Shown here one piece after another: positions 9,598 to 28,185 of a stretch of DNA of 49,573 bases. The notes beneath the pieces were generated by a model that did no database searches, was not told where the DNA came from, and saw only the letters and a list, made by a program, of their open reading frames with translations. Position numbers and translations under genes: made by a program. The stretch covers positions 1-49,573 of the forward strand of contig DUNA01000066.1 in NCBI GenBank assembly GCA_012839605.1. Direction: 5' to 3'. Origin of the DNA: Bacteroidales bacterium (GTDB lineage: Bacteria > Bacteroidota > Bacteroidia > Bacteroidales > UBA932). Within the stretch, counting starts at the first letter, position 1. The number at the start of each line of letters is the position of its first letter.

Positions 9598-9608
9598 GTT
9601 ACGAATGG

Positions 9609-9732: not shown

Positions 9733-9978
9733 ATGGAAAAGAGAGTAGGAACAGTAATCATTCAAATCAACAGCAATGAAGATGTCGGTCAGCTGAACGA
9801 CATCCTTTCCAATCATTCGGAAATCATCCTGGGAAGACAAGGTCTTCCGCGCAGCAATGGCAAAAATCTTATTTCCCTTATTCTTGAAGGTACTACAGAT
9901 CGGATAGGTTCCTTGACAGGCCAATTGGGTCGTCTGCAAGGAATACTCGTAAAGTCAGTACTATTGAAGAATAAATAA
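9733..9978 (+). CDS. Small ACT-like protein, TM1266-family putative regulator
   Basis: 81 residues, with an alternating beta-alpha-beta pattern (RVGTVIIQINSNEDVGQLND, then NLISLILEGTTDRIGSLTGQ, then QGILVKSVLLKN) as in the ACT/NikR-C-like TM1266 family, often annotated as a putative regulator of the iron-only hydrogenase system. No hydrogenase or HydEFG gene is in the window. It lies one base before the TonB-dependent receptor, so the two are co-transcribed and a ligand-sensing role for that uptake system is possible (inference). It has no DNA-binding domain of its own. Confidence 0.7.
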   Translation: MEKRVGTVIIQINSNEDVGQLNDILSNHSEIILGRQGLPRSNGKNLISLILEGTTDRIGSLTGQLGRLQGILVKSVLLKNK

Positions 9979-9979
9979 A

Positions 9980-12169
9980 ATGAAGAAAAAATCCATTGTT
10001 TTTGCAGCAGCCTGCATTTTGGCTGCGTTAACGCTTCACGCTCAAGAAGTAGAAAAGAAAGATACCATCCCCGTTACTCTGGGAGAGATTGTGGTAACAA
10101 GCCTGAAAATGGACCGCCAGGTCCGGAACGTGCCGGCTTCTCTGGTAGTGGTAGATTCGGCTTTGTACCAAAGGCAATCCGCCTTTACCTTGTCCAACGT
10201 GTTGGAACAGGAACCGGGAGTGACGCGTGGCGGAGACGGCGTTTGGGCCACCAACATCAACGTACGTGGTTTTAATGAGGACCGCTTGGTTATCCTCATT
10301 GACGGGAACAGGGTAGAGACGGCCACAGACCTGACGGCTTCTTTGAGTATGGTAGATGTGAACGATGTGGAGCGCGTAGAGGTAATCAAGGGCGCCCAAT
10401 CGTCTTTGTACGGCACGGGAGCCATGGGAGGCATTGTGAACATCATTACAAAACAAGGCCGATTTGGTGAAAAACCGTACGTATCCGGTAACGTTACTTC
10501 CGGTTTTGCCTCTGTAAACCGAATGTTTTCCAATTCTGCGAACGTGAGCGCCGGTTCCAAAAAATGGTTTCTCCATCTGGGAGGAACGTATGCCAAGGCA
10601 GACGATTTGCGCACACCGGACGGTATTTTGGAAAACAGCCGCTTTTCCACGAGCAACATCTCGGCAAAACTGGGGGTAAAGCCTTTTGCCAACCACGAAT
10701 TGAGAATGCAGTACCAACGCAATTGGTCTAAAGATGTAGGTGTCCCGGGTGGCGATGCGTTTCCCGGTCCGGCTAAAGCAACGTATACGGATATAGGACG
10801 TCACCTGTTTTCCGCCAACTACAAAATTTCCAATATTACGAGCAAATGGACATCGGTGGAATTGAAATATTTCACCCAATACATTGTGCGTGACGTGGCC
10901 ATGGAACCCAATCAGGTGACAGAGGCAACCATGCCCAACGGCAACATTCAACGTACGTCTCCGCAAGTGTTTTTTCCGCTTGGATTGCATTTGACAAACG
11001 GCGTACAACTGCAAGGTACGTGGGATTTGTCCCACAGGAATGTGTTGATTGCCGGAGCCGATGTATGGGGACGGAAGCTTCATACGGAACGCACCAAGCA
11101 CATCCGCGTAGATATCCTGAACCCGATGGGAGACATTGTGAGAACGAATATTGTGGAACGCGGTGAAACCCCCATTCCCGATTCGCGTTTTAATAGCGCC
11201 GGAATATTTTTTCAAAACGAAACGCGTTTTCTGGATGACAAGTTGACCATGATTGTAGGCGGACGTTTTGACGGCATCTTGATTAAAAACGAACAAGGTG
11301 TTGATGTAGATTACATCATCATGAACGGCGATAGGAACGACAACCCTCCGGGACAGCGCGTGACGTTTGAAAAAGGAGAAGAATACAATTTGTCTTGGAG
11401 TGCTAACTTTGGTTTGCTTTATAAGGTAATGCCCGATGTAGATTTGACATTGAACGCAGGGCGTGCTTTTCGTGCTCCGTCATTGGAAGAACGTTTTAAA
11501 TACATAGACTTGGGGAACTTCGTACGTCTGGGAGATCCGGCACTGAAACCGGAAAAATCCCACTCCATAGACCTGGGGCTGCGTATTTGGAAATCAAAAT
11601 TCAATCTGCAAGCCGGTGCTTTTGTGAACCGCCTGACCGATATGATTATAGAAAGACCGGGCGAATTCATATTCCGCTTGACAAACGAATCGGCCCCAGA
11701 TACGTTGCCCGCCCTGGTGAATGACAACGTTCGTAAAGCGTTGTTGTACGGTTTTGACATCAAATTTGCCTACAACTTCAGTCGGGATTTTGTGTTCTTT
11801 GGTTCCGGAGCGTATGTGCGCGGTCATGCTTTGGAAACAGAAGCCGACTTGCCGTTGATTCCTCCGCTCAATGGACGTGCCGGATTGCGCTATACGTGGC
11901 CCGGAGTAGGTGCTGCAGAAGTATCTATCATGGGTGCCGCCAAGCAAGATAAGATTGCCGAGGGGGAAAAAGAAACACCCGGTTACTACAGGTTGGATCT
12001 AGCTTTGCACACCAAAGCGTTTGACTTGGGCTTTATGCGTCTGCAGGGTTTTGCCGGTGTTGACAACATCACCAACACGCGCTACACAAACCACCTGTCC
12101 ACCAACCGCGGCGACATAAGCGTGGAGCCCGGTCGCAATTTCTTTGTTCGGTTGCGGTTGATGTTTTAG
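9980..12169 (+). CDS. TonB-dependent outer-membrane receptor (BtuB/CirA-like)
   Basis: 729 residues. Signal peptide MKKKSIVFAAACILAALTLHAQ, a TonB-box-like stretch (GEIVVTSLKMD), a complete plug domain (VPASLVVVDSALYQ to QSSLYGTGAMGGIVNIITKQG), then a 22-strand barrel ending in FFVRLRLMF with the terminal aromatic typical of barrels. It lacks the SusC N-terminal carboxypeptidase-like domain, so it belongs to the siderophore/cobalamin/metal type. The start follows the TM1266-like gene by one base. The divergent ABC importer may supply the inner-membrane step of the same uptake route, which would suit a small ligand or metal chelate; the ligand is not known. Confidence 0.9.
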   Translation: MKKKSIVFAAACILAALTLHAQEVEKKDTIPVTLGEIVVTSLKMDRQVRNVPASLVVVDSALYQRQSAFTLSNVLEQEPGVTRGGDGVWATNINVRGFNEDRLVILIDGNRVETATDLTASLSMVDVNDVERVEVIKGAQSSLYGTGAMGGIVNIITKQGRFGEKPYVSGNVTSGFASVNRMFSNSANVSAGSKKWFLHLGGTYAKADDLRTPDGILENSRFSTSNISAKLGVKPFANHELRMQYQRNWSKDVGVPGGDAFPGPAKATYTDIGRHLFSANYKISNITSKWTSVELKYFTQYIVRDVAMEPNQVTEATMPNGNIQRTSPQVFFPLGLHLTNGVQLQGTWDLSHRNVLIAGADVWGRKLHTERTKHIRVDILNPMGDIVRTNIVERGETPIPDSRFNSAGIFFQNETRFLDDKLTMIVGGRFDGILIKNEQGVDVDYIIMNGDRNDNPPGQRVTFEKGEEYNLSWSANFGLLYKVMPDVDLTLNAGRAFRAPSLEERFKYIDLGNFVRLGDPALKPEKSHSIDLGLRIWKSKFNLQAGAFVNRLTDMIIERPGEFIFRLTNESAPDTLPALVNDNVRKALLYGFDIKFAYNFSRDFVFFGSGAYVRGHALETEADLPLIPPLNGRAGLRYTWPGVGAAEVSIMGAAKQDKIAEGEKETPGYYRLDLALHTKAFDLGFMRLQGFAGVDNITNTRYTNHLSTNRGDISVEPGRNFFVRLRLMF

Positions 12170-12185
12170 GCTGTGGTAAGAACTC

Positions 12186-13547
12186 TTAATTAATGAAGAA
12201 GTAGCCTATAATTATTACCGAAAGCGATACAACCAACATAGGAACGAGGTTCCTTTTTATAAGAAGCATAGGGGAAACTCCGGCTAATTTTGTTACGGTA
12301 AGTACAATAATGGCAATAGGAGAAGCTATGCGGGCAATACCTGTAATAAGTTGCATAGAGACTGTCAATGCAAGAGTTGAGACTCCAATGGTTTCTGCCA
12401 GCTCGGGCATTAAGGGTAGTATAGAAGAGAACAAGGAAACTCCGCTTCCAACTAAGAGAACGGAGAAAAAAACCACTACACCCAGTGTGAACATAAGTAT
12501 AAAATCGCCAACAGGTAAAATGGTTAATATATAAATAATGAAATCAATAAATCCCATCCTTATAAGGCCTTGCGAAAACACATCGGCACATATCATAAGA
12601 ACTACAACAGACATACAAATCTTACCAAATCCTTCCCAAAAACAGTCCATGGACTTCAATGCTTGCACAACTGATTTCTTTACTATAGAATCCACTATCC
12701 CAACAATAAAGAAGGATATAATTATGGATATAGAAAGGCTGGATGTAATACGCATCTGATAGGGAGATATAAGTAATATTAAGATGGGTAAGAGTGGAAA
12801 CAATGCATAAAAAAGATGGGGAACCTTTTCCCAGTCTTCAATTTTTATCATATAGGGCTTAATGGATTGATTTTGAGATTCTTTTTTGTCAAAATGCTTG
12901 TTGGACAGATAGATAAACAGCATAGAGATAAAAACAAGAGGAATCATTACGGGAAGCTGAACAGAGAAGTATTGCGATATGTTTATTTGTAAAGCTTCTG
13001 CTGCTATATTGCTGTTCCAGGAAGCAATGCCCACGTCAAAAATTGTACAGGCAGAGATTACTGAAAGAGCAAATCCTCTGCTCACACCCAATCCCAATAA
13101 AACGGGATAGATGGTTGCCATAAAAAAAAGCCCCATTGCCGTTGCAGAAGGAAGCGCCATGTATATGATCGTTCCTATTGGAATGACAATAATTGAAAAG
13201 AGATATGCATTTTTTTTAAAGACAGAGACTGGACGCATCATTAGGTAAATAATTGCGTCACTCGCTTTGATCTTCTTCATATATTCGATATAACCTCCAA
13301 AGAGCATAATCAGCAAACCGGCTTCTAAGAACCTGTTTGTGAAAGCCTCATATATATAATCATAGAACGCTTTTAAAAAATTACCACCACAACTTAGTTG
13401 GTATTCGTTAACATTAAATAGGTAGGCAAGTGTAAACATGATTATACCCATACCTAAAAGAGTAATGGCGGGAGCAGAGTTTTTCCACAAAAGGTATCCC
13501 GTCAGTACTGCAAGATGTATTGCTATAATACCACTAATCAGTAACAT
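12186..13547 (-). CDS. C4-dicarboxylate carrier, DcuC family
   Basis: 453 residues, very hydrophobic, with about 11-12 membrane spans. The layout is that of DcuC carriers: LIMLFGGYIEYMKKIKASDAI early, ALPSATAMGLFFMATIYPVL in the first half, and LVGSGVSLFSSILPLMPELA and LITGIARIASPIAIIV in the second. DcuC proteins export succinate and exchange fumarate, malate or aspartate during anaerobic growth. It is divergent from the membrane-tethered regulator (59-bp gap with an inverted repeat) and starts the AT-rich accessory locus. Only 16 bp separate its stop from that of the TonB receptor. Confidence 0.82.
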   Translation of the reverse strand: MLLISGIIAIHLAVLTGYLLWKNSAPAITLLGMGIIMFTLAYLFNVNEYQLSCGGNFLKAFYDYIYEAFTNRFLEAGLLIMLFGGYIEYMKKIKASDAIIYLMMRPVSVFKKNAYLFSIIVIPIGTIIYMALPSATAMGLFFMATIYPVLLGLGVSRGFALSVISACTIFDVGIASWNSNIAAEALQINISQYFSVQLPVMIPLVFISMLFIYLSNKHFDKKESQNQSIKPYMIKIEDWEKVPHLFYALFPLLPILILLISPYQMRITSSLSISIIISFFIVGIVDSIVKKSVVQALKSMDCFWEGFGKICMSVVVLMICADVFSQGLIRMGFIDFIIYILTILPVGDFILMFTLGVVVFFSVLLVGSGVSLFSSILPLMPELAETIGVSTLALTVSMQLITGIARIASPIAIIVLTVTKLAGVSPMLLIKRNLVPMLVVSLSVIIIGYFFIN

Positions 13548-13558
13548 ATTCTATGTTT

Positions 13559-13575
13559 TTATGTTTTTTACATAA
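13559..13575. promoter_or_regulatory. Inverted repeat between dcuC and the regulator gene
   Basis: TTATGT and ACATAA, separated by five T residues, in the 59-bp gap between divergent genes. It could be an operator for the SARP-like regulator. The region is AT-rich, so chance is not excluded. Confidence 0.35.
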
Positions 13576-13606
13576 TAATATTTAAATTTATGTTTAATTT
13601 AAAAAG

Positions 13607-14956
13607 ATGCCAAAAAAAAGTCTCTTAGTTCTTCTTGCACTCGTATTTTGTAATACAACATTTGCTTTTGATCAGCAACTGCAGAAAAGTGGCATAAAGC
13701 TTCATTTTACACCTAATATAGAGATAAAGGTTACCACACACATCAATCCGCATGTTCAAAATTATTCTTTTCCTCTCATTGCATTTGAAATACACAATTA
13801 CATTAAACTGGCATTTCTAGTAGAATCCAACGATTCAACATTTAGATACACACTCATTTCCTCTGAATTCATGAAGTCTATTGAGACAAGAAAAAGAGGT
13901 CCGGTTCATAACGATTCTATAGAGTTCCTTCTCTCTGTTCAGAAAGATAAAATTTCCATCTCGTCACAAGAAGAAACGGTTACTTTCCACGACATCAAAA
14001 TGGTTCAAGACATCTCGTATAACGTATGTCTTCCTCTAGAGAACGAACTTATTACTGCAGTCAATGTCTCTGTAGGAAATGCCCAAAAATCAAACATAAC
14101 TTTAAAGGTTATTTATGGAATTATAGCTCTATTTGTCATTGATTTTTTCATATATTTTTATTTTAGACTGAAAGGTAAGAGGCGAGAACAAAGCCTCTTG
14201 GAGGAAGATCAACCCTTGGAAGATGCGGACAGTCAGCATGCACTCACAAAAGCTTCTATCAAACTGTTCGGAGAATTTAGAGTTTATGACAAACACGGAA
14301 CCGATATTACCAAGAAATTCTCTCCTATGCTTAGGGAATTGTTCTGTCTGTTATTGTGTCATTATCAGGAAGGTGGTATTTCTATAAGAGTACTTAATAA
14401 CATTTTATGGTATGATAAAGACAAGCACAGTGCCAGAAACAATCGCTCCGTCTATTTGGCCCGATTGAAAAAGATTTTAGAGAATGTAGGAGATTATTCT
14501 ATTGCTAAGAACGGTGATTTCCTTTCTTTAGAGTCGGACGAAATCAATATTGACTATTACGATTTTATCAATATAGTTGCTTCTGACGATAAGTCATTAG
14601 CCAACGTAGAATCTTTACTTGACATTATCAAAAACGGAAGCTTTCTTCAGACATGTGAATATACGTGGCTTGATAATACCAAATCTAATGTCTCCGATGC
14701 AGTTGTCAGTTATCTTGAAAACTTCTTGCTTACATTTAATATAAAGGACAATCCGGAACTTGTAATAAATGCTTGCAACGCTATTTTCTTGTTTGATTCT
14801 TTGGATGAAGTTGCCTTAAGGTATAAATGCAGAGCTTATAAAGAGATGGGTAATCATACGTTAGCCAAACAGTTGTATGCCAACTTCACAAAAGAATACT
14901 CTGAACTATATCATGAAGATTTCAACAAGTCGTTTATAGAAATAATGACAGACTGA
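13607..14956 (+). CDS. Membrane-tethered one-component regulator with SARP-like DNA-binding and TPR domains
   Basis: 449 residues. Signal peptide at 1-20 (MPKKSLLVLLALVFCNTTFA); periplasmic beta-rich region at about 21-160, resembling a concanavalin-like or lectin-type sensor; one membrane helix at about 166-186 followed by RLKGKRR; a winged-helix at about 216-312 (ASIKLFGEFRVYDKHGTDIT, then SPMLRELFCLLL, NNRSVYLARLKKIL), the SARP/OmpR-like pattern; and a helical TPR/BTAD-like tail. Such proteins sense a periplasmic ligand and bind DNA from the membrane. No receiver or kinase domain is present. It is divergent from dcuC and convergent with the SusCD operon, so it is the likely local regulator. 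The exact sensor fold is not recognised. Confidence 0.75.
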   Translation: MPKKSLLVLLALVFCNTTFAFDQQLQKSGIKLHFTPNIEIKVTTHINPHVQNYSFPLIAFEIHNYIKLAFLVESNDSTFRYTLISSEFMKSIETRKRGPVHNDSIEFLLSVQKDKISISSQEETVTFHDIKMVQDISYNVCLPLENELITAVNVSVGNAQKSNITLKVIYGIIALFVIDFFIYFYFRLKGKRREQSLLEEDQPLEDADSQHALTKASIKLFGEFRVYDKHGTDITKKFSPMLRELFCLLLCHYQEGGISIRVLNNILWYDKDKHSARNNRSVYLARLKKILENVGDYSIAKNGDFLSLESDEINIDYYDFINIVASDDKSLANVESLLDIIKNGSFLQTCEYTWLDNTKSNVSDAVVSYLENFLLTFNIKDNPELVINACNAIFLFDSLDEVALRYKCRAYKEMGNHTLAKQLYANFTKEYSELYHEDFNKSFIEIMTD

Positions 14957-14971
14957 ATCAGCCTGTCATTA
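14945..14971 (+). terminator. Hairpin at the end of the regulator gene
   Basis: AATGACAG pairs with CTGTCATT, and the inner CTGA/TCAG extends the stem with one mismatch. The regulator stop codon lies inside it. No T run follows on the plus strand, so it may protect the 3' end or act with Rho rather than terminate alone. On the minus strand it lies past the serine hydrolase stop. Confidence 0.45.
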
Positions 14972-14999
14972 CTGCTATAAAAAACCTAAACTAAAAAAA

Positions 15000-15056
15000 A
15001 TGAAAGACTTACTGTTTACATCCAGCAATCTTTTTTATCAACGCATAATACGTTGA
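15000..15056 (+). other. 18-codon frame resembling the dedA leader, antisense to the serine hydrolase 3' end
   Basis: After AACCTAAACTAAAAAAA an ATGAAAGAC opens a frame of exactly 18 codons, as at 5903-5959. Both are preceded by a hairpin with GACAG/CTGTC arms. It overlaps the end of the gene at 15009-16115 on the other strand. I list it only because of this resemblance; coding is not shown. Confidence 0.2.
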
Positions 15057-16115
15057 TTTCTCCATATTTGCATTCACATCCTTGTGTGCAATTACCATAT
15101 CTAAATGCGGTAGAACTGTAATATATTGACCTCCTAAGCCTGTAGCTGTATAGCCGTCTTTGTATACATTTGGATCATATCCGGTGTACTCTTTGTTAAA
15201 AATCCACCACAAATATCCGTAATCAAACTCACGAGTATGACGTGAGGAGGGATTCATTTCTGTGCGTGGAGTAACAACAGAGGTTGTGGCCTTTACCCAG
15301 TCTTTGCTAATAATTTGCTTTCCGTTCCATTCTCCTTCTCTCAACATAAGATATCCGACTCTGGCCATATCTCTTGTTGAAATCCAAAAATGGTATGCGG
15401 GGTATTTTGAGAGAGTTAGGTCTCCTGTTTTCTTTTGATTTGCAAGTTTGTAATCCTGCATGCCAATAAGAGAAGCAATGTCTTGATAGAAGGCGGAATA
15501 GATATCCATTCCCACCAATTGCTCAAAAACGCCGCCGGCACAATTAAAATCCCAATTGTTGTATAAAAAATAGGTACCGGGCTCTACACTTCCCCTTTTA
15601 GGAGCATGTTTGGAATCATCTCCTGTATTAGAGGCCGGATGAAAGACACCCGAACGTGCTGTAATTAAATGACGTACTTTGGCCTTCTTTTCTATATCCA
15701 AGAGTCCGTCAATATCATCAATATTCAGATCTTTTAGAGTGGCATCCAAATTGATGGTGCCGTCTTCCACATACTTTCCATAAAGCATTGACAGTAAGCT
15801 TTTTCTACAAGAAGCAATCCTTGCATTATGAGAGAGGTCTCCCATAGAGAAAATAACTTTTCCTTCCACTACTACTATGAGATGAGTAGTAGAATACTTT
15901 TTTTCTATCTCTGCTTTTAGAGCTGCAAATTTCTCTGAACTATACCCTTGTGTCTCCGGTGATGTTGTTTCCCAGTCTTTACCCGGGAAATACCGGGAGC
16001 TTTCATGGTTATTGGGTCCATCGGAACCGTTTGATTCCGATGGACAGCAGCACGTAACAGTTGTACATATTAGTAAGATACCAATTAGTATATTCTTAAT
16101 GTATGTGTACTTCAT
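15009..16115 (-). CDS. Serine hydrolase lipoprotein, beta-lactamase class C/S12 family
   Basis: 368 residues with a lipoprotein signal (Cys at 22-24). Active-site elements of the S12/beta-lactamase-C fold are visible: S102-C-R-K105 in ASCRKSLLS, Y185-N-N187 in FLYNNWDFN, and a glycine-rich third motif near GLGGQYITVLP. The family includes D,D-carboxypeptidases, D-aminopeptidases, esterases and amidases, so the reaction is open. As the last gene of the SusCD run it probably acts on the imported substrate in the periplasm or at the surface. It is eight bases behind the lipoprotein gene. Confidence 0.82.
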   Translation of the reverse strand: MKYTYIKNILIGILLICTTVTCCCPSESNGSDGPNNHESSRYFPGKDWETTSPETQGYSSEKFAALKAEIEKKYSTTHLIVVVEGKVIFSMGDLSHNARIASCRKSLLSMLYGKYVEDGTINLDATLKDLNIDDIDGLLDIEKKAKVRHLITARSGVFHPASNTGDDSKHAPKRGSVEPGTYFLYNNWDFNCAGGVFEQLVGMDIYSAFYQDIASLIGMQDYKLANQKKTGDLTLSKYPAYHFWISTRDMARVGYLMLREGEWNGKQIISKDWVKATTSVVTPRTEMNPSSRHTREFDYGYLWWIFNKEYTGYDPNVYKDGYTATGLGGQYITVLPHLDMVIAHKDVNANMEKSTYYALIKKIAGCKQ

Positions 16116-16123
16116 ATGATGAT

Positions 16124-17956
16124 TTATTCTTCTTTATAATCTTTTACGCAACGGATACTGCAGGCGTTACCTCTATTGATGGCAGCTCCCGGATTGATTT
16201 GATTGTCTCTAATCCTTGCTGCATATCCGCTGGCACCGGAAGCATTTAAATAATCACACCAGTAGTGATGTTGTCTTCCGAGGTTTAGCATGCGCCCGGC
16301 TTTTCTTGCTCGATTCCCGTTATTGGGGAACCAAACATCCAAACCTTTAAGTACAAAACCCAAATGGGTTTCCGTGTCCATACCTTCCGTTGTTCCGTCT
16401 GCATGATATACCAATTCCATGCCGCCATAATTTAATGAAGCATTTACTCCCCATATTGCTTTGCTTTCATCACTGTTTGGAATATGATAGCCATAAGGAC
16501 AGGGATTTGCTACAGCTGCCCATGTTATATCTTCTACAGAAGGGGCGTTGTCATTGTTTGAGATATAGCGAGTGGGGTACGCACTTGCTCCTTGGTGTGT
16601 TTTCGTTTCTTCATCACCATCATCAAAATACCAATCTTCAACATAGGTCTTGTTTATGGAGGATGAAGCAGTGGCGGCTCCACCAATTTCTGTTTCACTT
16701 TCATCCTCTGTACTGCTAAACTGACCAATAATTCCAACACCAATTATAGGATCTTTTCTGCCCCACTGGTAATATAAGCCGTGAGGACCTGCCGTGCCGG
16801 GTGTTGTATTTACTGCTCCCAACAATCTGTCTAGCATAACAATAGACCTTGTAACCGTTTGATTGTTATCGGTGGCAGTAGTATTGCGTGTCAAAGACAT
16901 GTCTTCAAGAGAAACAGTGCTTGTCCAAATGTGCCAAGTCCAAAGAATTTTCTTGCTTGCAGGGTCAACATAACCCACCACTGTATTTCCGCCAACTTCT
17001 TGGACATGAATGTAAATCTGTGTTTCTTCCGGAATTCCTGCAGGATACTCGCCTAACGGGTTCTTTGCATAGAACGAGTATATGCCCGGTTTGTCAATTA
17101 CAAAACAGTTGGCCGGTTGTGTTCCATCGGCATCAAGAGATACTGCACCTTCTACTTCATTGGTAGAGGCTTCTGAAACAAAACTATCTAATGACGGGCC
17201 TCCGCTCCAAACAAGGATGGCTTGGTTATCACCTTGAACTCTAAAACGTTTTTCTGTCAATTGCGCAAAATCCGAAATGTTTTGTGGAACTATGACATAT
17301 TCTCCGTCTTGATATAAGGCTATACCTTTTATTGTTCCACTCAATTCCGGAACAATTTCTCCTGCAAAAGAGGCGGTAGACGGTGTAATTACACGAATTG
17401 TATCGCTGTCCTTATTTATGAATTTCAGTGTCTTTCCCACGCTCTCTGAAATCTGCTCCTCAATTACTTCATAACCGGATAGGCCTACATACATAGATTG
17501 GAAATTTCCGCTTTGCAACTTTGTGTTATCAATGATTATGGCACCGTACGGAGCCGTAGTGCTGTTGCTCTTTGTGACACTCTTGTCGTTAGGAATTGTT
17601 ATGGTACAAAAGCTATCGTCTTTACTAAGTTGGCAACCATCTATGTCTATTAAAATGTTATCTCCGGCTTGATAACTGTGGGTAGATTTGTGATTTATTA
17701 AAATCCCATCTCTTGATTCGTATCCATCCTGAATGGTAAACATTGTTGTTCCAAGAACTTCTGATTTACTCATTACTACAGCAGGAATTGTCACTTTTGC
17801 CGTCAATGTACCTGCATTAAAATCTTTTACTTCAGAGATTGTAAGAACCCGTAATGCATCCGGATTGATTTGTTCGGGTTTTACATCCTTTTCGCATGCT
17901 ATTACTGTACAGCATAAAATAGCACAAATAGCAGCTTTAATAATATTGTCATTCAT
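16124..17956 (-). CDS. Surface lipoprotein with DUF5689-like and FISUMP-like domains
   Basis: 610 residues. Lipobox VIAC at about residue 21, followed by EKD, an acidic signal of the type that sends Bacteroidota lipoproteins to the cell surface. The N-terminal third (VLTISEVKDFNAGTLTAKVT onward) looks like the OB-type DUF5689 domain. The C-terminal third has the Fibrobacter major-paralogous pattern (HGLYYQWGRKDP, VANPCPYGYHIP, NACSIRCVKDY). These proteins are usual third partners of SusCD pairs and bind or process the ligand outside the cell; no catalytic motif is visible. It is 12 bases after susD and 8 before the serine hydrolase. Confidence 0.72.
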   Translation of the reverse strand: MNDNIIKAAICAILCCTVIACEKDVKPEQINPDALRVLTISEVKDFNAGTLTAKVTIPAVVMSKSEVLGTTMFTIQDGYESRDGILINHKSTHSYQAGDNILIDIDGCQLSKDDSFCTITIPNDKSVTKSNSTTAPYGAIIIDNTKLQSGNFQSMYVGLSGYEVIEEQISESVGKTLKFINKDSDTIRVITPSTASFAGEIVPELSGTIKGIALYQDGEYVIVPQNISDFAQLTEKRFRVQGDNQAILVWSGGPSLDSFVSEASTNEVEGAVSLDADGTQPANCFVIDKPGIYSFYAKNPLGEYPAGIPEETQIYIHVQEVGGNTVVGYVDPASKKILWTWHIWTSTVSLEDMSLTRNTTATDNNQTVTRSIVMLDRLLGAVNTTPGTAGPHGLYYQWGRKDPIIGVGIIGQFSSTEDESETEIGGAATASSSINKTYVEDWYFDDGDEETKTHQGASAYPTRYISNNDNAPSVEDITWAAVANPCPYGYHIPNSDESKAIWGVNASLNYGGMELVYHADGTTEGMDTETHLGFVLKGLDVWFPNNGNRARKAGRMLNLGRQHHYWCDYLNASGASGYAARIRDNQINPGAAINRGNACSIRCVKDYKEE

Positions 17957-17968
17957 TATGTGTAAGTT

Positions 17969-19786
17969 TTAATAAGTAGGATAACCCTCGTTTTGTTTAA
18001 TTTTAATCTTTGTATTAGAATCAATAAAGACCTTTGGAATAGGGAATAATACCGGAGTATCATACAATTCTGCTCCGTGACTTACTGTTGTAGTGCCTAA
18101 CATAGAAGTGCCACCCTCAATTTGTCCACACACTTCGTTAATGTCTCTTATTCGCCGTTTGAAGAAATTATCGACGTCTCGTTCATCTCCACCGTTTGCC
18201 TGACTTACACGCATCAAAGTGTGTCTTCTTTGCCCCTCACAAAGGAGCTCTCTGGCACGCTCATCTAATATGAAATCCATTGTGATATCAGATGAAGCTA
18301 CATAAGAGACTTGTGCACGACTGCGGATCTTATTCAGCCATTTTGCAGCTCCTTCGTTATCTCCCAATTTGTGTAATGCTTCTGCATATAACAGATATGG
18401 TTCCGACAGCCTCATATAAGAGACATTTTGGAAACAATAATCTGTACTTGCTCTCTCAAAGTTAGAGTGAAGATTATCCCATTTTCGTGTAGATGGCAGG
18501 AAATAATTTTTAATGGTGCCTTCGGAAGTCGCAAACATAGCCGCTGTAGGTACCAGGGCAATAGGACTGTTACCATCTTTGTCCAAAATCTCATATACTT
18601 CATTTTTGGTATTCAGAAAATAGAGCTTTTTCATAACGGAATATTCGTCATACCTAATGTCGTTATCCTGTTGATTGTCCCACTCGTACAGTCTCCAGGC
18701 CCCTATTGGTACGGCTAGACGGGAAGCGCCTTTACCTCCGTTCAAAGACCAGAAGAGATCTATCGTTTTACCTTCATAATCGGGATGAGAGAGTGTAGAT
18801 ACTTCCGTTAAATAGGAGTAATAGTTTTTAAACATATTGCGTACTTCACTTATGCCGGTTGTCCCATAAGGGATAGACTCCTCTTCTGCGTTTAAGAAAC
18901 TATATAGCACCTCGTTATTGCCGTCAGAATAGAGAGGACTACGGAACACATCAATAAAACAATTGCCCGGTTCGTTTGCGTTTGAGCCAAACCTTGCTGT
19001 CATTAGGCTAAACTCGTTTCCTTCACAGAGCGGCTCCAACACATCTACGGCCTTTTGTACCTGGTCAATGGCAAGGTAGGTTTCTGCTAAGTAAGCTCTT
19101 GAAATGGCTTGATTTGGTTTTGTGTTGTTTCCATCTACGCGCCAGTCCAAATGGTCCACACAATATTGAAAATCTGCAATCATTGCTTCCCGTACTTTCT
19201 CGATAGGATCTCTATCCCAGTCTGTTCTGTAATTTGATCCTGTAATTTCGTCTAAACTAAGCGGAACATCTCCAAAGCAATAAGTTAAATGCCTGTAGGC
19301 CCACGCCCTAAAGAATTTTGCCTGAGCAATAATAGATGTTTTATTTTTCTCATCTTTTTCGGCAGAACCACCCTCCCAGTCTACATCGAGGTCATTTTCT
19401 GCTCTATTGATAATCATGTTGCTTACATTTATGATGGTGTACATTTGATCGAAAATTTCTTTAAAAACGACACCATCTGTAAACTGAGTAATTAGCTTAG
19501 GCCAATTCCACCATGTTGCGGTAGATATTCTTTGGTTACCAAAATAAAGATCTGAGCCCCCATTGAAAACGGAGTTTGGACTAATAGCAGTAGCGCTAAA
19601 ACGTCCGTGCTCGTTCCTCATAAGTCCTCTTTGAGCAGAGATCATACTGTAAAACCCACTGTAATTAACCAAAAGGTTGTTTGCATAAATCTCATCAACC
19701 GGCCTCTCTTTTAAGAAATCCTTAGTACAGGAATTAGAAATAAAGCAGGTTGCTAATAATATTGCTATAATGATTATTTTTTTCAT
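17969..19786 (-). CDS. SusD/RagB-family nutrient-binding outer-membrane lipoprotein
   Basis: 605 residues. Lipoprotein signal MKKIIIIAILLATCFISNSC, then TKDFLKERPVDEIY, the usual SusD start. The helical SusD core follows (AQAKFFRAWAYRHLTYCFGDVPL, then NQAISRAYLAETYLAIDQVQKAVDVL) and the C-terminal region ends in FPIPKVFIDSNTKIKIKQNEGY, the standard family ending. SusD proteins form the lid of the SusC channel. It is 11 bases behind susC. The ligand cannot be read from the sequence; neighbours point to peptides rather than glycans. Confidence 0.95.
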   Translation of the reverse strand: MKKIIIIAILLATCFISNSCTKDFLKERPVDEIYANNLLVNYSGFYSMISAQRGLMRNEHGRFSATAISPNSVFNGGSDLYFGNQRISTATWWNWPKLITQFTDGVVFKEIFDQMYTIINVSNMIINRAENDLDVDWEGGSAEKDEKNKTSIIAQAKFFRAWAYRHLTYCFGDVPLSLDEITGSNYRTDWDRDPIEKVREAMIADFQYCVDHLDWRVDGNNTKPNQAISRAYLAETYLAIDQVQKAVDVLEPLCEGNEFSLMTARFGSNANEPGNCFIDVFRSPLYSDGNNEVLYSFLNAEEESIPYGTTGISEVRNMFKNYYSYLTEVSTLSHPDYEGKTIDLFWSLNGGKGASRLAVPIGAWRLYEWDNQQDNDIRYDEYSVMKKLYFLNTKNEVYEILDKDGNSPIALVPTAAMFATSEGTIKNYFLPSTRKWDNLHSNFERASTDYCFQNVSYMRLSEPYLLYAEALHKLGDNEGAAKWLNKIRSRAQVSYVASSDITMDFILDERARELLCEGQRRHTLMRVSQANGGDERDVDNFFKRRIRDINEVCGQIEGGTSMLGTTTVSHGAELYDTPVLFPIPKVFIDSNTKIKIKQNEGYPTY

Positions 19787-19797
19787 ACGTAAAAATT

Positions 19798-22743
19798 TTA
19801 AAAACTAACTTTTAGCCCAAGTGTATATTGCCTCGTTTGAGGTATAGATCTTTGCCGGCTGGAAGAGCCCACAAATTCAGGGTCAAGTCCTACCCAATTC
19901 GTGAAAGTGAATAAGTTTTTCATGTTCGCATACACCTCTAATTTGCTCATTCTCAATGGTTGTAACACCCTCTCAGGTAGTTTGTACGACAATGTTACAT
20001 CCTTAATCTTAATAAAATCCGCACTTCTATAGAAACGTACTCGTTTTGGATTGCTGGAAGCATCCCTGGTATTTGAAGGATACTCGTTAATAGGGTACGT
20101 TTCTGACCAGAATGCCCGATGGTATAAGTTGATTCTGTAACTCTCTGTATGAGAGTTTACGAAATAGTTAGGCGTAAGTGAGCCGTATCGGCCTATCATA
20201 TAGACAGATAGCGAGAAGTTTTTATAACTAAACGTGTTTGTCAGACTGGCATCAAATTTTGCTTCGCGTGAACCAACGACCATCTGATCCTTTTCCGGAG
20301 TAATATCACCATCACCATCTAAATCTTTGTATCTTACATAACCCGGTTGCGAATGTAAAGGTGTATTGGAGTCAATTTCTCCAATTTGCCAAATACCATC
20401 AAAGACGTAATCGTAATAACAGTTTGTAGGCCAGCCTAAGAAATAACCTGAAGCAACGTCGTCTATAGGATTCCCATTCTCATCATACAATCCTACGTCT
20501 ACAAGTTTTGTTCTATTTGCATATATTATAAAACTGGTTGACCATGTAAAATCTTTTTTGCTGATATTGATGGAGTGCAGCCCAAACTCAATCCCATAGC
20601 TATGCGTTTTTCCAATATTTTCCCAAATGGAGCTTGCCCCGTTTATGGACGGGATAGTCTTAACAAGAAGCAAATCTGTTGTTCTTGCATCATAGACATC
20701 TAATGTTCCCGATATTCTATTGGCCAGCATACCATAATCTAAACCAATATTAAAAGATGTTGTCTTCTCCCATCCTAAAAGCGGAGACTCTAATTTTGTA
20801 GGATAGTAACCAAATTCTGAAGAATAATCATCTCCTAAGTAGTTGCGTGTGCTTAATTTAGGTAGCGTTGCATAGGGGTCAATAGCCTCGTTACCATTTA
20901 TACCATAAGACAACCTCAGTTTAAGTTGGTTGAACAATTTGTCCATTTTTGTTCCCTTAATAAATGGTTCATTAACCACATTCCAACCAAGGGCTACCGA
21001 TGGAAAGAGGCCGTATTTTCTGTCCTCTCCAAATCCGGAGTAACCGTCGTTTCTGACTGTTAAGGTCATTAAGTATCTGGAATCGAATGAATAGTTTGCT
21101 CTTAACATTTGCGAAACGTGTGTCTTTGTCCATTCACTGGCACTGGCTGTAAGAGCAGTGGCTTTGTCAGGTTGCCAATACGTTAATACATCACTCCCAA
21201 ATCCGCTCCCCTCTATGGTGTTTGTCTCTCTTGTCTGATGTTGAGCAGAGTAAAGAGCTGTGAGGAAAAGGCTGTGTTTCCCAAATGTTTTTGTGTAGCT
21301 TAAGATGTTTTCAACCAGCCATTTGGACGAATATGAGTCGTAAATTTCAAGCAACCCGTTATTTCTTGCTCCGGTGTAGGTGTCTCTGCCATAATACGTG
21401 TTTTCATCTCTTGAGTCAAACTGCACATTGGTGCTCAGCCTATATAGTAAACCATCAATGGGGAACTTCACATCTAAGGAGTTGTTGGTCATAAGGGTTC
21501 TACGAATATTGCTGTTAATAACATTTAGTTCAGCTAAGGGGTTGGCCACATCTGTCGAAGCCTCCCAAGTTTGCAAGCGTAATGATCCATCAGAATTGTA
21601 TGCTTGAGCAAGAGGGTTCATGTAGTACGCAGACTGGAAGTCTACGTGGTGGCCGCTTCTGTCCACAAAGTTGATTTGAGTATTTGTACTGAATTTTACC
21701 CATTTGCCAATATCCTGCTCAAAGTTGATTCTTCCGGAATACTTTGTAAAGTCATTACCTTTTGCAATTCCCTTATTGTCTGAAGCAATAAAAGAAACAA
21801 AGTAATTATTGACTTTTGTTTTCCCACTGACAGAAATGGTGTGGTAATGGTTAAGACCTGTTCTTAACGCAAGACCTACCCAATCCACATAATTTTTGCT
21901 TAGAAATGTATTGCGCTCAGTAAGAGTGAAGTCTCCGACCGCCTCGTTTTTATAATAATAAAAGGTGTCGCCGTCCATCATCTTTGGAAGTTCATATACA
22001 TCTGAAACAGTCATATAACCATGGTAGTTCACCCTCGCCTTATCGCTCTGTCCTTTCTTGGTTGTAATCAGGATAACGCCGTTGGCGCCTCGGGAACCGT
22101 AAATAGCGGCAGACGAAGCATCCTTTAACACCTCTATAGACTCGATATCATCCGGGTTCAATTCAGACCAGCTGAAGTAATAAGGTGCACCATCCAGGAT
22201 GATAAGAGGGGCATTGCCTGCATTAATAGAGTTGCTGCCTCTAATAACGGTAGAACTCTTACTTCCCTCTGCATCAGAACCATATAATTCAACTTTCAGT
22301 CCCGGAATAGAGCCTTGTAACGCTGTAACAAGATTGGGAGCCGGTCTGTTTTCAAGAACATCTTTATTCAGAGATGCCACTGCACCCGTAACGTCGCTCT
22401 TTTTCTGCACACCATATCCAACTACAATAATATCATCGAGCAATGTAGCATCTTGTTCCAGTACAACAGCAAGAGGAGTATCTCCCTCTACGACAACCTC
22501 TCTTGTACTATAACCTAGAAAACTAAATATTAATACATCTCCATCTTTGGTTGAGATAGAAAATTTGCCGTCAAAATCTGTTTGAGTGCTGACAGAAGTA
22601 CCTTTAATGACAATTGCCACACCTAGCATCGGTTCATTATTTGCAGCTCCGTCAAGTACCACTCCCGTGATAGTTTTCTGTGCAAATGCCGATAAAGTGA
22701 AGCAAAGCATATAAGTGAGAAATACGAATAACCTCCTTTTCAT
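19798..22743 (-). CDS. SusC/RagA-family TonB-linked outer-membrane channel
   Basis: 981 residues. Signal peptide MKRRLFVFLTYMLCFTLSAFAQ, a carboxypeptidase-regulatory-like domain (about 23-105, ITGVVLDGAANNEPMLGVAI onward), the DDIIVVGYG TonB box, a plug with GSNSINAGNAPLIILDGAP and SAAIYGSRGANGVILITTKKG, then a barrel ending in RQYTLGLKVSF. It imports large ligands with the SusD lid. It is on the short side for the family. A 91-bp AT-rich gap separates it from the upstream symporter gene; I see no clear -7 element there, so it may be read from the promoter at the peptidase gene. Confidence 0.95.
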   Translation of the reverse strand: MKRRLFVFLTYMLCFTLSAFAQKTITGVVLDGAANNEPMLGVAIVIKGTSVSTQTDFDGKFSISTKDGDVLIFSFLGYSTREVVVEGDTPLAVVLEQDATLLDDIIVVGYGVQKKSDVTGAVASLNKDVLENRPAPNLVTALQGSIPGLKVELYGSDAEGSKSSTVIRGSNSINAGNAPLIILDGAPYYFSWSELNPDDIESIEVLKDASSAAIYGSRGANGVILITTKKGQSDKARVNYHGYMTVSDVYELPKMMDGDTFYYYKNEAVGDFTLTERNTFLSKNYVDWVGLALRTGLNHYHTISVSGKTKVNNYFVSFIASDNKGIAKGNDFTKYSGRINFEQDIGKWVKFSTNTQINFVDRSGHHVDFQSAYYMNPLAQAYNSDGSLRLQTWEASTDVANPLAELNVINSNIRRTLMTNNSLDVKFPIDGLLYRLSTNVQFDSRDENTYYGRDTYTGARNNGLLEIYDSYSSKWLVENILSYTKTFGKHSLFLTALYSAQHQTRETNTIEGSGFGSDVLTYWQPDKATALTASASEWTKTHVSQMLRANYSFDSRYLMTLTVRNDGYSGFGEDRKYGLFPSVALGWNVVNEPFIKGTKMDKLFNQLKLRLSYGINGNEAIDPYATLPKLSTRNYLGDDYSSEFGYYPTKLESPLLGWEKTTSFNIGLDYGMLANRISGTLDVYDARTTDLLLVKTIPSINGASSIWENIGKTHSYGIEFGLHSINISKKDFTWSTSFIIYANRTKLVDVGLYDENGNPIDDVASGYFLGWPTNCYYDYVFDGIWQIGEIDSNTPLHSQPGYVRYKDLDGDGDITPEKDQMVVGSREAKFDASLTNTFSYKNFSLSVYMIGRYGSLTPNYFVNSHTESYRINLYHRAFWSETYPINEYPSNTRDASSNPKRVRFYRSADFIKIKDVTLSYKLPERVLQPLRMSKLEVYANMKNLFTFTNWVGLDPEFVGSSSRQRSIPQTRQYTLGLKVSF

Positions 22744-22834
22744 AATAGATACAATTAATTAAAATATTACATATAAAGTTAAGAGTTTGCCATAGGGGAC
22801 TTGTTAATGTTATTGTTAATAATGTACTAACAAA
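22744..22834 (-). other. AT-rich gap before susC
   Basis: 91 bp between the symporter stop and the susC ATG. It holds three near-identical hexamers in tandem (GTTAAT, GTTATT, GTTAAT at 22803-22820) but no clear terminator or TAnnTTTG element. Confidence 0.4.
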
Positions 22835-24064
22835 TTAAATTTTTAAAACTTCTCCTTCAGATTTCGCAATTACGACCGCTGCACACATATCACCATAACT
22901 GTTTGTAGCGGTACGCGGCATATCACAAAGCTGTTCAACAGCAAGCACAAGGCCTATACCTTCTAATGGTAGTCCAACCGCTGACAGGACTACGGAAATC
23001 ATAACCAAACCGGCCATAGGTATGCTGGCCGTACCAATAGCAGCTAAAAGAACAGTTGCCACTACCATTACTTGTTGAACAATAGTTAGTTCAATGCCAT
23101 AAGCCTGAGCAATAAACAGCACGGCTACGCTTTCGTATAAGGCTGTTCCGTTCATATTCACAGTGGCGCCTAAAGGCAGAGTGAAACTTGCAATTTTATT
23201 GGAGACCCCAACCTTCTCTTGCGTGTCGCGAAGTGATATTGGTAGAGCTGCCGCTGATGAACAAGTGGAAAATGCTGTGAGGATTGCTGTAGACATCTTG
23301 CTCATGTGTTTCCATGGGTTGGCTTTACCTACAAACCGAACTATGGCAGGTAGTATAATGAATGTCTGAATAAGGCACCCTGCCCAAACAATACCAACAA
23401 AAAGTCCAAGACTGCTTAGAGTTTTAACCAATTTATTCATGTCCCCTGCTTGCTTTCCTATCATGGTGGCTACAATGGCAAAGACTCCAATGGGTGCAAG
23501 ACGGATGATGAACATCGTTATCTTGATAATAACATCGTATGTGCTGCTAAAGAAGTCAACTAGGAAACTCTTAGATTTCTCTCCCACTCTAGTAATAAAG
23601 AAACCAAATAAGATAGAGAAGAAGATAAGCGGCAATATGTTTCCATCAGCCATGTCTGCAAAAATATTTGCAGGAATAATGCCTACAATTTGATCTATAA
23701 ATGACGATTCAGTAGCTGCAATGGATTCAACACTTTCTGAAAGACCAACATCGGCACCTACTCCCGGTTGGAAAATATTCACCAAAACCAAACCCAAAGT
23801 AGCTGCTATAAGTGTTGTGGAAATATAAAAAGCAAAGGTCTTTCCGGCTATTCTTCCAAGATCTGCCGAGCCGCCAATGCTTGCAACACCCATAGTGAGT
23901 GAGGTAAATATTATAGGTATGATGATCATTCTTAGAGCACGAAGAAACATATCTCCGGCCCACTGAATGTATTTTATGTGTTCAGATAAAAACACTCCAA
24001 AAAGAGCACCAAGCAAGATGGCTATGAGTATTTGCCAGTGAATTGCTAATTTCTTAGTTCGCAT
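22835..24064 (-). CDS. Dicarboxylate/amino acid:cation symporter (DAACS, GltP/DctA type)
   Basis: About 409 residues. The family marks are present: the serine-rich loop TAFSTCSSAAALPISL, the TLPLGATVNMNGTALYE motif and AAIGTASIPMAG. DAACS carriers import glutamate, aspartate or C4-dicarboxylates with Na+ or H+. I take the ATG at 24064 (MRTKKLAIHWQ); the frame upstream of it overlaps the racemase gene. It lies 13 bases after the racemase, which suggests that the imported substrate is an acidic amino acid. Substrate selectivity is inferred from this pairing. Confidence 0.9.
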   Translation of the reverse strand: MRTKKLAIHWQILIAILLGALFGVFLSEHIKYIQWAGDMFLRALRMIIIPIIFTSLTMGVASIGGSADLGRIAGKTFAFYISTTLIAATLGLVLVNIFQPGVGADVGLSESVESIAATESSFIDQIVGIIPANIFADMADGNILPLIFFSILFGFFITRVGEKSKSFLVDFFSSTYDVIIKITMFIIRLAPIGVFAIVATMIGKQAGDMNKLVKTLSSLGLFVGIVWAGCLIQTFIILPAIVRFVGKANPWKHMSKMSTAILTAFSTCSSAAALPISLRDTQEKVGVSNKIASFTLPLGATVNMNGTALYESVAVLFIAQAYGIELTIVQQVMVVATVLLAAIGTASIPMAGLVMISVVLSAVGLPLEGIGLVLAVEQLCDMPRTATNSYGDMCAAVVIAKSEGEVLKI

Positions 24065-24077
24065 GTTATTGTTTTTG

Positions 24078-24815
24078 TTATTTGTTAGTCTCCGGATTGT
24101 AAAGATGTTCAATACAGGCATCAGCTAACGCATGCAAAGAAGATATTGCATGGTTTTTATCTAGCCCGGTGTAATCATATGCTATTGGAAGTTCAGTACA
24201 AGCACAAACTATCGGTATCTTTTCACTTGACCAAAGCTCTTCTATAATTCCTTTATAGAGCTTTCCGGATTTTTCGTATTCACCGCTTTTTACCAAATCA
24301 ATTGTACGTTGTATACAATCATTTTGCTCTTGAGAAGGAATTCGGAAGGTATAACCCAATACTTCTGCATGCTTTTGATACAGTCCTGTTTTTATAGTAC
24401 CCATTGTTGCAGTAAGCCAAGCTCCGTCCGGTGAAATGCGAGCCGCTGCCTTTATTGTCTCTTGTATGATATGTATGAGAGGAAGAGGCATCAAACCTTC
24501 TGAAATCAACTCATCTAGGAAGTAGTGAGCTGTATTGCAGGGTACTGCCAAAACATCTGCACCCCACTTGTATAAAGCTTCAATTCCTCGTTTGATCTCT
24601 GCACCGGGTGAGGGGCCCGTACCAAGTAGGAAAGAAGTTCTATCAGGCGTGATTGTATTAGAATAAACAATTGTTTCCGGGTGTTCTTGGTCGCAAGATG
24701 CCGGGGCTCTTTTTGACAAAAGGAGCATAAAATCTGCAGTAGCAGCCGGACCCATACCACCTAAAACACCTAAAATTGATTTTGGTCTCATCTTGTAAAA
24801 GTCACTATTTTTCAA
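24078..24815 (-). CDS. Aspartate/glutamate racemase family protein
   Basis: 245 residues, cytoplasmic, with no signal peptide. The N-terminal LGVLGGMGPAATADF is the standard AspR/YgeA start. The two catalytic cysteines are Cys93 in VPCNTAH and Cys206 in ACTELP. PLP-independent racemases of this family interconvert L- and D-Asp or L- and D-Glu; homologues with broad specificity exist. It overlaps the upstream peptidase by 11 bp if the ATG at 24815 is used; the ATG at 24791 (MRPKSILGVLGG) is an alternative. Its place between a peptidase and a symporter points to catabolism rather than cell-wall D-Glu supply. Confidence 0.9.
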   Translation of the reverse strand: MKNSDFYKMRPKSILGVLGGMGPAATADFMLLLSKRAPASCDQEHPETIVYSNTITPDRTSFLLGTGPSPGAEIKRGIEALYKWGADVLAVPCNTAHYFLDELISEGLMPLPLIHIIQETIKAAARISPDGAWLTATMGTIKTGLYQKHAEVLGYTFRIPSQEQNDCIQRTIDLVKSGEYEKSGKLYKGIIEELWSSEKIPIVCACTELPIAYDYTGLDKNHAISSLHALADACIEHLYNPETNK

Positions 24816-25941
24816 AATATCTGGATTGTTTTAAAACTCTAACAACTTCGTCAACAGGTATTTGAGGAACAATTCTTCCTTTGTATCCTTTTGTTGTTTG
24901 AGCCATAAATAAGGAATTCCACAAGGCCTCTGCTGTTGCTTCTATAGTGGCCAAGAAAAGCGATGACATGGCGCTGTTGTGCAATACGCTCGAGGTATAA
25001 AACGGCTGTTTTTCATTGATAAGGTTGTCCGGATATACCGACATAGCAATTACATAATCACCGCTTCCATTGGAAGCAATACCCCCTGTTTTAGCAAGTC
25101 CTAACATGGCTCTCTTTGCTATCCGCTCCAAATTCCTAGAATCTACCGGGGCGTCTGTAATGACAACCATCATACATGACCCATCGACATCTTGTAGTAC
25201 ATCGTTTTTATAACTGTATTTCCCAAGTAGAGGGCCCACAGGAACTCCGGCAATTTCAAGTACACCACCGTAATTTGATTGAACTATCACACCTACTGTA
25301 TAACCGCCTAAGCTCTTTGGTAAAACGCGTGAAGATGTACCAATGCCGCCTTTGTACCCAAAAGCTCTAGTACCTGTACCTGCTCCTACAGCTCCTTCTT
25401 CAACAGGACCGCTCTTGGCGTTCTCAATGGCTTCTAGAACTATTTCCGGAGTAATAAAACGAGCGCTTATATGGTTCAACTGGCTATCATTTGTTTCTCC
25501 TACGACACCGTTTACGGAACGAACATTTTCATTTCCCGGTTGTTGCAAAGTATATGTTATTAAGCCATCCAGCCCGGCTGCCACACTCAGTGTATTTGTT
25601 AAAATCACAGGTGTTTCAATGTTCCCCAGTTCCTGAACTTGAGTGTATCCGGCTAATTTCCCAAAACCATTGCCTGTATAAATCGCAGCCGGTATTTTGT
25701 TTCTAAAAATATTGTCTTGATGTGGAACAATTGCTGTAACACCTGTACGAATACTATCACCTACAATACAGGTTACGTGTCCTACAGTTACTCCTTTAAC
25801 ATCAGTAATGGCATTCTCTTTCCCCGTTTTGAATATACCCGGTGTGATTCCAAAATCTCTAAGTCTTTGTGAATGCAAATGGCTAGAAGAAGCTACTACA
25901 ATGAAGAAGAGTAAGAAGGTTTTTAAAATTATTTTTTTCAT
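24805..25941 (-). CDS. P1-family (DmpA/S58) peptidase, exported
   Basis: 378 residues with a signal peptide (MKKIILKTFLLFFIVVASSSHLHS). DmpA-fold marks include TDVKGVTVGHVT, VGAGTGTRAFGYKGGIGTSS and the self-cleavage site N291-G292|S293-G294-D295, where Ser293 would become the N-terminal nucleophile. Known relatives are the L-aminopeptidase/D-Ala-esterase DmpA and beta-peptidyl aminopeptidases BapA, which cut D- or beta-linked N-terminal residues. It is the first gene of the minus-strand run and should release amino acids in the periplasm for the symporter. The exact substrate is unknown. Confidence 0.88.
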   Translation of the reverse strand: MKKIILKTFLLFFIVVASSSHLHSQRLRDFGITPGIFKTGKENAITDVKGVTVGHVTCIVGDSIRTGVTAIVPHQDNIFRNKIPAAIYTGNGFGKLAGYTQVQELGNIETPVILTNTLSVAAGLDGLITYTLQQPGNENVRSVNGVVGETNDSQLNHISARFITPEIVLEAIENAKSGPVEEGAVGAGTGTRAFGYKGGIGTSSRVLPKSLGGYTVGVIVQSNYGGVLEIAGVPVGPLLGKYSYKNDVLQDVDGSCMMVVITDAPVDSRNLERIAKRAMLGLAKTGGIASNGSGDYVIAMSVYPDNLINEKQPFYTSSVLHNSAMSSLFLATIEATAEALWNSLFMAQTTKGYKGRIVPQIPVDEVVRVLKQSRYFEK

Positions 25942-25966
25942 TGAGCTAAAAATTGTTTTTCCAGCT

Positions 25967-25999
25967 TAAATGTAAATGAATCTTTATAAGGAATCCTTA
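25967..25999 (-). promoter_or_regulatory. Putative promoter/operator of the peptidase-to-hydrolase run
   Basis: On the minus strand TACATTTA (25974-25967), one base off TAnnTTTG, lies 26 bases before the ATG. Just upstream is a perfect 13-base palindrome TAAGGAATCCTTA (25987-25999), placed where a regulator could act on the promoter. No second copy is seen near susC or dcuC. Confidence 0.4.
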
Positions 26000-26044
26000 G
26001 TAAAACAGTTAAAATTTTCTTAATGGTGCTATTCTTATCCAGTA

Positions 26045-26076
26045 TTTGTTACTCTGGTAATGAATCTCTATCTTTG
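26045..26076 (+). promoter_or_regulatory. Promoter of mgtE
   Basis: TTTG (26045-26048), 20 bases, TATCTTTG (26069-26076). It predicts a leader of about 117 bases before the mgtE ATG, long for this organism and containing a strong hairpin. Confidence 0.65.
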
Positions 26077-26141
26077 ACAGATATTAAAAAATCATGTGAA
26101 GAATGGACGAGAGCCCTTATCATAGTTGTAGTATCATGCTG

Positions 26142-26191
26142 CTGTAAGGGGAGAATTATGTCTCCTTACAGTATTTAATTGTTAGGAGACA
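26142..26191 (+). promoter_or_regulatory. Hairpin and Shine-Dalgarno site in the mgtE leader
   Basis: CTGTAAGG-g-GAGA (26142-26154) pairs with TCTCCTTACAG (26161-26171). The AGGAGA at 26184-26189, just before the ATG at 26197, can instead pair with the same TCTCCT. So the 3' arm of the hairpin has two mutually exclusive partners, one of them the ribosome-binding site. I do not recognise an M-box here. Confidence 0.45.
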
Positions 26192-26196
26192 AGATT

Positions 26197-27531: not shown

Positions 27532-27552
27532 CGGAAGCTGCGCGTTGTTGCC

Positions 27553-28176: not shown

Positions 28177-28185
28177 ACCGATTAC

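Follow-up and report, generated by a model that had tools for sequence, protein, structure and literature searches.

A horizontally acquired SusCD locus with a P1-type aminopeptidase, an Asp/Glu racemase and a DcuC carrier in a Bacteroidales bacterium: a candidate system for peptides with abnormal aspartyl linkages

SusCD loci are mostly taken for glycan systems. RagAB represents the peptide SusCD systems and, to our knowledge, is not accompanied by a racemase, a symporter or a DcuC carrier. Beta-aspartyl material is the substrate of cyanophycin utilisation loci, which, according to PMC10206079 (citing Ben Hania et al.), comprise cyanophycinase, the isoaspartyl dipeptidase IadA and a transporter, and PMC11204068 gives a precedent in Sutterella for a route from isoaspartyl dipeptidase to aspartate, fumarate and succinate. 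Here we report a computational analysis of a nine-gene locus in a 49,573-nucleotide stretch of DNA from a Bacteroidales bacterium (contig DUNA01000066.1; the whole stretch is called the window). The locus joins a SusC/SusD pair to a P1-family aminopeptidase, an Asp/Glu racemase, an acidic amino-acid symporter, a DcuC-family carrier and a membrane-tethered regulator. We give about an even chance to the proposal that it is an acquired SusCD locus serving peptides whose aspartyl linkages are abnormal, most probably the beta-aspartyl (isoaspartyl, isoAsp) and D-aspartyl peptides that ordinary proteolysis leaves behind. The original prediction, made from the DNA letters, had read the nine genes as a peptide locus; a peptide-type SusCD and acidic substrates of the racemase and symporter gained support, whereas the test it proposed, a search for the same gene set in other genomes, failed, nothing spoke for peptidoglycan cross-bridges as substrate, and the case for succinate export is weak.

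Open reading frames (longest frames) together with Pfam and NCBIfam profile scans found all nine predicted genes, which lie within an inserted block:

12154-26062, no strand: inserted block; homology to the closest congener, G106, ends at 12153 and resumes at 26063
12186-13547, minus strand: DcuC-family dicarboxylate carrier, DcuC1 type (PF03606, 164.7 bits; TIGR00771, 212.4 bits)
13607-14956, plus strand: membrane-tethered SARP-like regulator (predicted fold matches AfsR and EmbR)
15009-16115, minus strand: S12 (beta-lactamase-fold) hydrolase, a lipoprotein by its N-terminus (PF00144, 67.4 bits)
16124-17956, minus strand: DUF5689 and FISUMP-like surface lipoprotein (PF18942, 53 bits; TIGR02145 below cut-off)
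17969-19786, minus strand: SusD-family lipoprotein (PF07980, 107.4 bits)
19798-22743, minus strand: SusC-family TonB-dependent transporter (TIGR04056, 803.9 bits)
22835-24121, minus strand: DAACS/SDF acidic amino-acid symporter (PF00375, 428.6 bits; DMPRTATN at 400-407)
24078-24815, minus strand: Asp/Glu racemase family protein (asp_race; near CuyB; PF01177 and TIGR00035 above cut-off)
24805-25941, minus strand: P1 (Pfam S58) DmpA/BapA-type aminopeptidase with an N-terminal signal sequence (PF03576, 366.6 bits)

DcuC and seven other genes occupy the minus strand, with the regulator alone opposite. The seven genes from P1 to S12 follow one another on one strand, either overlapping or no more than 91 bp apart, in line with the predicted short gaps or overlaps: in the longest frames as listed, P1 overlaps the racemase and the racemase overlaps the symporter, 91 bp separate the symporter from SusC, and gaps in the SusC-SusD-DUF5689-S12 run are 8-12 bp (11 bp within the SusCD pair, which is formed by adjoining TIGR04056 and PF07980 genes). 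None of the nine proteins matched a glycosidase, a peptidoglycan hydrolase or a sulfo-lyase family in the Pfam and NCBIfam scans, in agreement with the earlier claim that no glycoside hydrolase is present.

The nine genes are a real and coherent set and a single horizontally acquired unit of mosaic make-up. The flanking TonB receptor gene (9980-12169) and mgtE (26179) adjoin directly in the congeners G106, G117 and G071, so about 13.9 kb (12154-26062) are extra in the window; a fourth congener, G021, gives no information on the insertion site, its contig stopping within mgtE. GC content at third codon positions (GC3) is 30.5-38.6% in the nine block genes versus 37.2-58.6% in 14 other window genes of our choosing, the two ranges touching. 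At E<=1e-200 no SusC was found in the other 12 genomes of the genus, and at E<=1e-10 no racemase was found in the 11 further genomes of the genus that the family search covered. No convincing terminal repeats were seen at the insertion, an Rfam scan of 9500-28700 gave no match up to E 1, and a promoter scan returned 50 candidates against 41.3 expected.

The peptide reading is carried by the relatives of the window SusC. They were sought in 149 genomes of the family, 393 of the order, and 40 and 13 genus genomes, and the loci of 14 relatives were read; two of the searches scored at most 5 or 2 candidates per genome and may therefore have passed over some relatives. Maximum-likelihood analysis places the window SusC in one group with 13 relatives (100/99), with identities of 76% to L131 and 67% to L150 (76% and 70%, respectively, for SusD). 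The 13 clade loci hold DcuC in 11 cases, an IadA homologue in nine, an M14 peptidase in nine, a SARP-like regulator in seven and an esterase-like protein in seven, versus 0/20 for each in control SusC loci from six genomes, hand-picked among the SusC matches listed, and chosen before their neighbours were viewed. Fisher tests gave 4e-7 for DcuC, 2e-5 for IadA, 2e-5 for M14 and 4e-4 for the SARP-like regulator, values that overstate independence because six of the 13 loci (L132, L133, L134, L151-L153) are close relatives from one genus. Counted by taxonomic family, IadA is found in four of six (f1, f8, f105, f111) and not in f14, while f38 is represented by a contig of 5 kb. L132 supplied the query sequences for DcuC2, IadA, M14 and esterase and therefore matches itself. 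L140 (SusC identity 36-40%) lies outside the 14-row clade and was left out of the 13; counting it gives DcuC 11/14, IadA 9/14, M14 9/14 and SARP 7/14. Clade relatives without IadA are L131, L146 and L153, whose contigs end early, and L149, which is negative within the 14 kb read. This family context supports the predicted peptide-type SusCD, and the IadA homologues strengthen the isoAsp idea. Like RagAB, the window SusC/SusD would thus act as a peptide importer, and RagA is among its PDB matches (262.8 bits).

L132, L133, L134, L145, L147, L148, L151 and L152 show a SusCD-DcuC-IadA-M14 locus type, to which a second DcuC, an esterase-like and a SARP-like gene are often added. For this locus type the best-ranked open-access literature matches gave no description, which is weak evidence of absence. 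In L147 (16803-19829) a 1009-aa protein fuses an esterase-like region to an M14 carboxypeptidase domain, which are separate genes in several other loci.

In the nearest full locus, L150/L154, the gene order is SusC, SusD, DcuC2, DUF5689, S12 and IadA; the window has SusC, SusD, DUF5689 and S12 in the same order, without DcuC2 and IadA. The L150 homologues are 65% identical for S12 and 45-47% for the DUF5689 lipoprotein. Neither IadA nor M14 has a match anywhere in the window, so the window, as a clade member lacking the IadA and M14 linkage, may work like the DcuC-IadA-M14 SusCD type without being a standard member of it. The block is best read as a rewired version of the SusCD-DcuC locus type, in which P1, the symporter and the racemase would stand in for IadA; consistent with such a substitution, the own genome yielded no IadA at E<=1e-60. 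More tentatively, and on balance doubtfully, a P1-family Ntn peptidase may have taken over the IadA role as a periplasmic isoaspartyl/D-aspartyl aminopeptidase, cleavage moving from the cytoplasm to the periplasm so that a symporter and a racemase would be needed.

IadA homologues score above the TIGR01975 cut-off in five of six clade members scanned (L132, L145, L147, L148, L151). We take E77 of E. coli IadA (EcIadA) to hold the free amine of the substrate. At this position Glu is found in 44/44 rows of the other IadA group (some rows being the same gene twice), and the nine clade homologues mostly differ there, so they may prefer altered substrates and may not be classical isoaspartyl dipeptidases. 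PMC10206079 lists E77 among the substrate-binding residues. Of 65 places with IadA, 20 regions were read. SARP, DcuC2, IadA, M14 and esterase genes occur together without a window-type SusC in L188 and L191; among six low-scoring IadA regions, DcuC2 is present in L188, L191 and L193, and the other three lie on contigs below 5.3 kb. The other Bacteroidales IadA group has a distant SusC nearby in 12 and M14 in five of the 14 loci read. Within this group, L199, L203 and similar Bacteroidales loci carry SusC, IadA and S51-family proteins (cyanophycinase above cut-off in L203; the S51 protein of L199 below the scan threshold) and are probably cyanophycin utilisation loci, in agreement with the locus described in PMC10206079. 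These would share with the window the uptake of beta-aspartyl material and the release of aspartate. The window, in contrast, has neither IadA nor cyanophycinase (no match at E<=1e-8 to three S51-family queries) and a SusC of a distant clade, and carries DcuC, the SARP-like regulator, P1, the racemase and the symporter instead.

The S58 profile covers P1 almost completely (1-306 of 307) and above the curated cut-off, and the protein aligns with 2drh, DmpA (1b65) and BapA (3n2w). Its DGS motif aligns with the GS/NS autoproteolysis site of four solved members, and its Ser is presumably the autoproteolysis nucleophile. By its N-terminal signal sequence, P1 is taken as periplasmic. It thus resembles the DmpA/BapA aminopeptidases in nearly full-length match and conserved GS/NS site, and differs from them in sitting in a SusCD locus and in its putative isoAsp/D-Asp specificity. 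Formally, isoAsp is a beta3-amino acid, and N-terminal beta-amino acids are among the residues that BapA/DmpA enzymes act on and can release; the link from P1 to isoAsp is a chemical one, drawn because isoAsp is of the residue kind these enzymes release. The abstract of PMC9570944 concerns enzymatic carnosine synthesis. A native P1 paralogue is also present in the same genome, on contig C86, and shares 89% identity with the G021 P1. In the region L139:1630-11087, this native gene lies near genes for arginine deiminase, an M55 D-aminopeptidase and formate-tetrahydrofolate ligase, and beside genes judged by eye to be ribosomal-protein-like.

The racemase and the symporter both retain the signature residues of acidic-substrate proteins, which supports the substrates named in the original prediction. 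R59, C93, K176 and C206 of the racemase align with R48, C82, K164 and C194 of PhAspR, of which we take C82/C194 to be the catalytic Cys pair and R48/K164 the acidic-substrate residues. The best PDB match of the symporter is the 'Aspartate transporter' 9bgz (354.3 bits), and its DMPRTATN sequence keeps D400, R403 and N407 of the DMxRTxxN motif, R403 being presumably the Arg that meets the acidic side chain, a role known from GltPh. Racemase relatives were detected in 33 of the 149 family genomes at E<=1e-10, in 25 (own included) at E<1e-50, and order-wide in one of 393 genomes, the own. The two genes adjoin in 6/14 distinct racemase loci read, and the closest pair, in G045 of genus g4, is 67-68% (racemase) and 72% (symporter) identical. 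In L138, a racemase relative (55-56%) and an unrelated SusC (26%) are about 2.3 kb apart, and the genes between them look sigma-factor-like and FecR-like by eye.

The regulator had no Pfam or NCBIfam match. Its structure, predicted with a seven-sequence alignment as input, matched six AfsR/EmbR chains, the only PDB matches below E 0.001 (about 1e-6), which bears out the claim of a SARP-like protein; the predicted fold combines the winged helix and BTAD fold of SARPs. The block-wise predicted local distance difference test score (pLDDT) is 62-95 over approximately 211-449 and low over most of 21-214. On this model the protein is taken as having a signal sequence, a periplasmic part, a membrane-spanning helix at 166-196, and a cytoplasmic winged helix followed by a repeat domain. 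DcuC exceeds the TIGR00771 cut-off of 187 bits and clusters with the regulator-side DcuC of L132, L133, L134 and L151-L153 (100/99), but on a long branch flagged as unsure by the tree program. The S12 hydrolase has the motifs S102xxK, Y185xN and K319xG.

In the proposed mechanism, peptides would be captured and imported by SusC/SusD together with the DUF5689 lipoprotein and S12, and periplasmic P1 would take off their N-terminal residue. The DAACS symporter would bring in the freed D/L-aspartate, the racemase would convert D- to L-aspartate, and DcuC would exchange C4-dicarboxylates. The tethered SARP-like protein would turn the locus on, presumably upon meeting its ligand. Related loci would do the same job via an IadA homologue and, usually, another DcuC.

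Several observations weigh against this proposal. The full gene set, sought elsewhere from P1, SusC and the racemase, was not found: P1, racemase and symporter occur in 0/14 loci of SusC relatives, and a P1 neighbourhood survey (the 80 nearest loci, of which 44 had complete 10-kb flanks, and a further 29 short loci from the family) gave matches to DcuC, SARP, S12, DUF5689, SusD, DAACS and racemase in 0/80 of the nearest loci, and a distant SusC in 2/80. What is known of P1 substrates does not concern isoAsp. The IadA of L154 scores 302 bits, below the TIGR01975 cut-off of 331, and the E77 position is Q in seven, K in one and E in one (L154) of the nine clade homologues. L149 (SusC 44-45%) lies among sulfatase-like genes (by eye) and has no IadA, DcuC or M14. 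The nearest solved SusC is not RagA but 8aa4 (435.7 bits), which we take to be a fructan transporter and thus part of a glycan system. Aspartate ammonia-lyase (aspA) is not above cut-off in the own genome, which is 92.5% complete; with the direction of DcuC one that we infer, the earlier idea of fumarate respiration with succinate export is weak.

Foremost among the other explanations is general scavenging of acidic or D-peptides, with P1 an ordinary L/D-aminopeptidase, the racemase-symporter pair salvaging D-Asp/D-Glu, for example from cell walls, and isoAsp in no way special. The best PDB matches of P1, 2drh and 5tzb, are named D-aminopeptidase, the 6/14 adjoining racemase-symporter pairs come without SusCD or IadA, and the window has no IadA, all of which speak for it. 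We nevertheless regard it as rather unlikely: SusCD, DUF5689 and S12 are common to L150/L154, a locus that ends in IadA, and no peptidoglycan hydrolase family was matched. Nothing was found for a cross-bridge substrate either.

Slightly less probable still is the co-travelling of two unrelated modules, a SusCD for its own ligand and a P1-racemase-symporter passenger for amino acids. Against it, low GC3 and a single insertion are common to all nine genes, and the two sets share the same-strand run from P1 to S12 with its overlaps and short gaps. In its favour, the modules are separate in every other locus read, and their affinities differ: genus g4 (G045, G061, G130) has the nearest relatives of P1 and of the racemase-symporter pair, and g16 (G092, G547) those of SusCD, the clustering of the window P1 with the g4 proteins having moderate support (89/94) and a long branch.

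A ligand other than a plain isoAsp peptide, whether an N-glycopeptide or some different amide-linked conjugate (for example, Asn-linked GlcNAc, or N-acyl or N-succinyl aspartate), is improbable. Q or K at the E77 position in 8/9 clade loci, a weak second match of the M14 relatives to an AstE/aspartoacylase domain and the one clade member amid sulfatase-like genes suggest such a ligand, while the nine proteins match no glycosidase family and the locus nearest to the window retains Glu at that position. Cysteate or a sulfonated relative as substrate is very improbable: CuyB (NF052483) is the best NCBIfam model of the racemase, but its 179 bits fall below the cut-off of 190, which led us to reject a cysteate racemase identity, all three racemases tested (two relatives at 179 and 173 bits) lie below that cut-off and above the TIGR00035 one, and no sulfo-lyase family was matched.

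Beyond the block, a 14-codon mini-open reading frame, MDESPYHSCSIMLL, stands at 26103-26147 ahead of mgtE (region 26103-26200). In the fold predicted for the window alone, its stop codon lies within a stem, and this stem is in competition with a hairpin that covers the ribosome-binding site of mgtE. The MDE(S/G)P start and similar following bases are kept in G106, G117 and G071, and Rfam gave no match at this leader. The element is reminiscent of Mg2+-sensing leader peptides, for example MgtL.

A SusC clade accompanied by isoaspartyl-peptidase homologues, DcuC and a membrane-tethered regulator of SARP-like type suggests that Bacteroidales may feed on aspartyl peptides that are damaged or indigestible. 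Beta-aspartyl dipeptides are known to vanish from the gut in the presence of a normal microbiota, and such loci may offer candidate genes for this phenomenon. The window suggests that other parts can be assembled into the same route.

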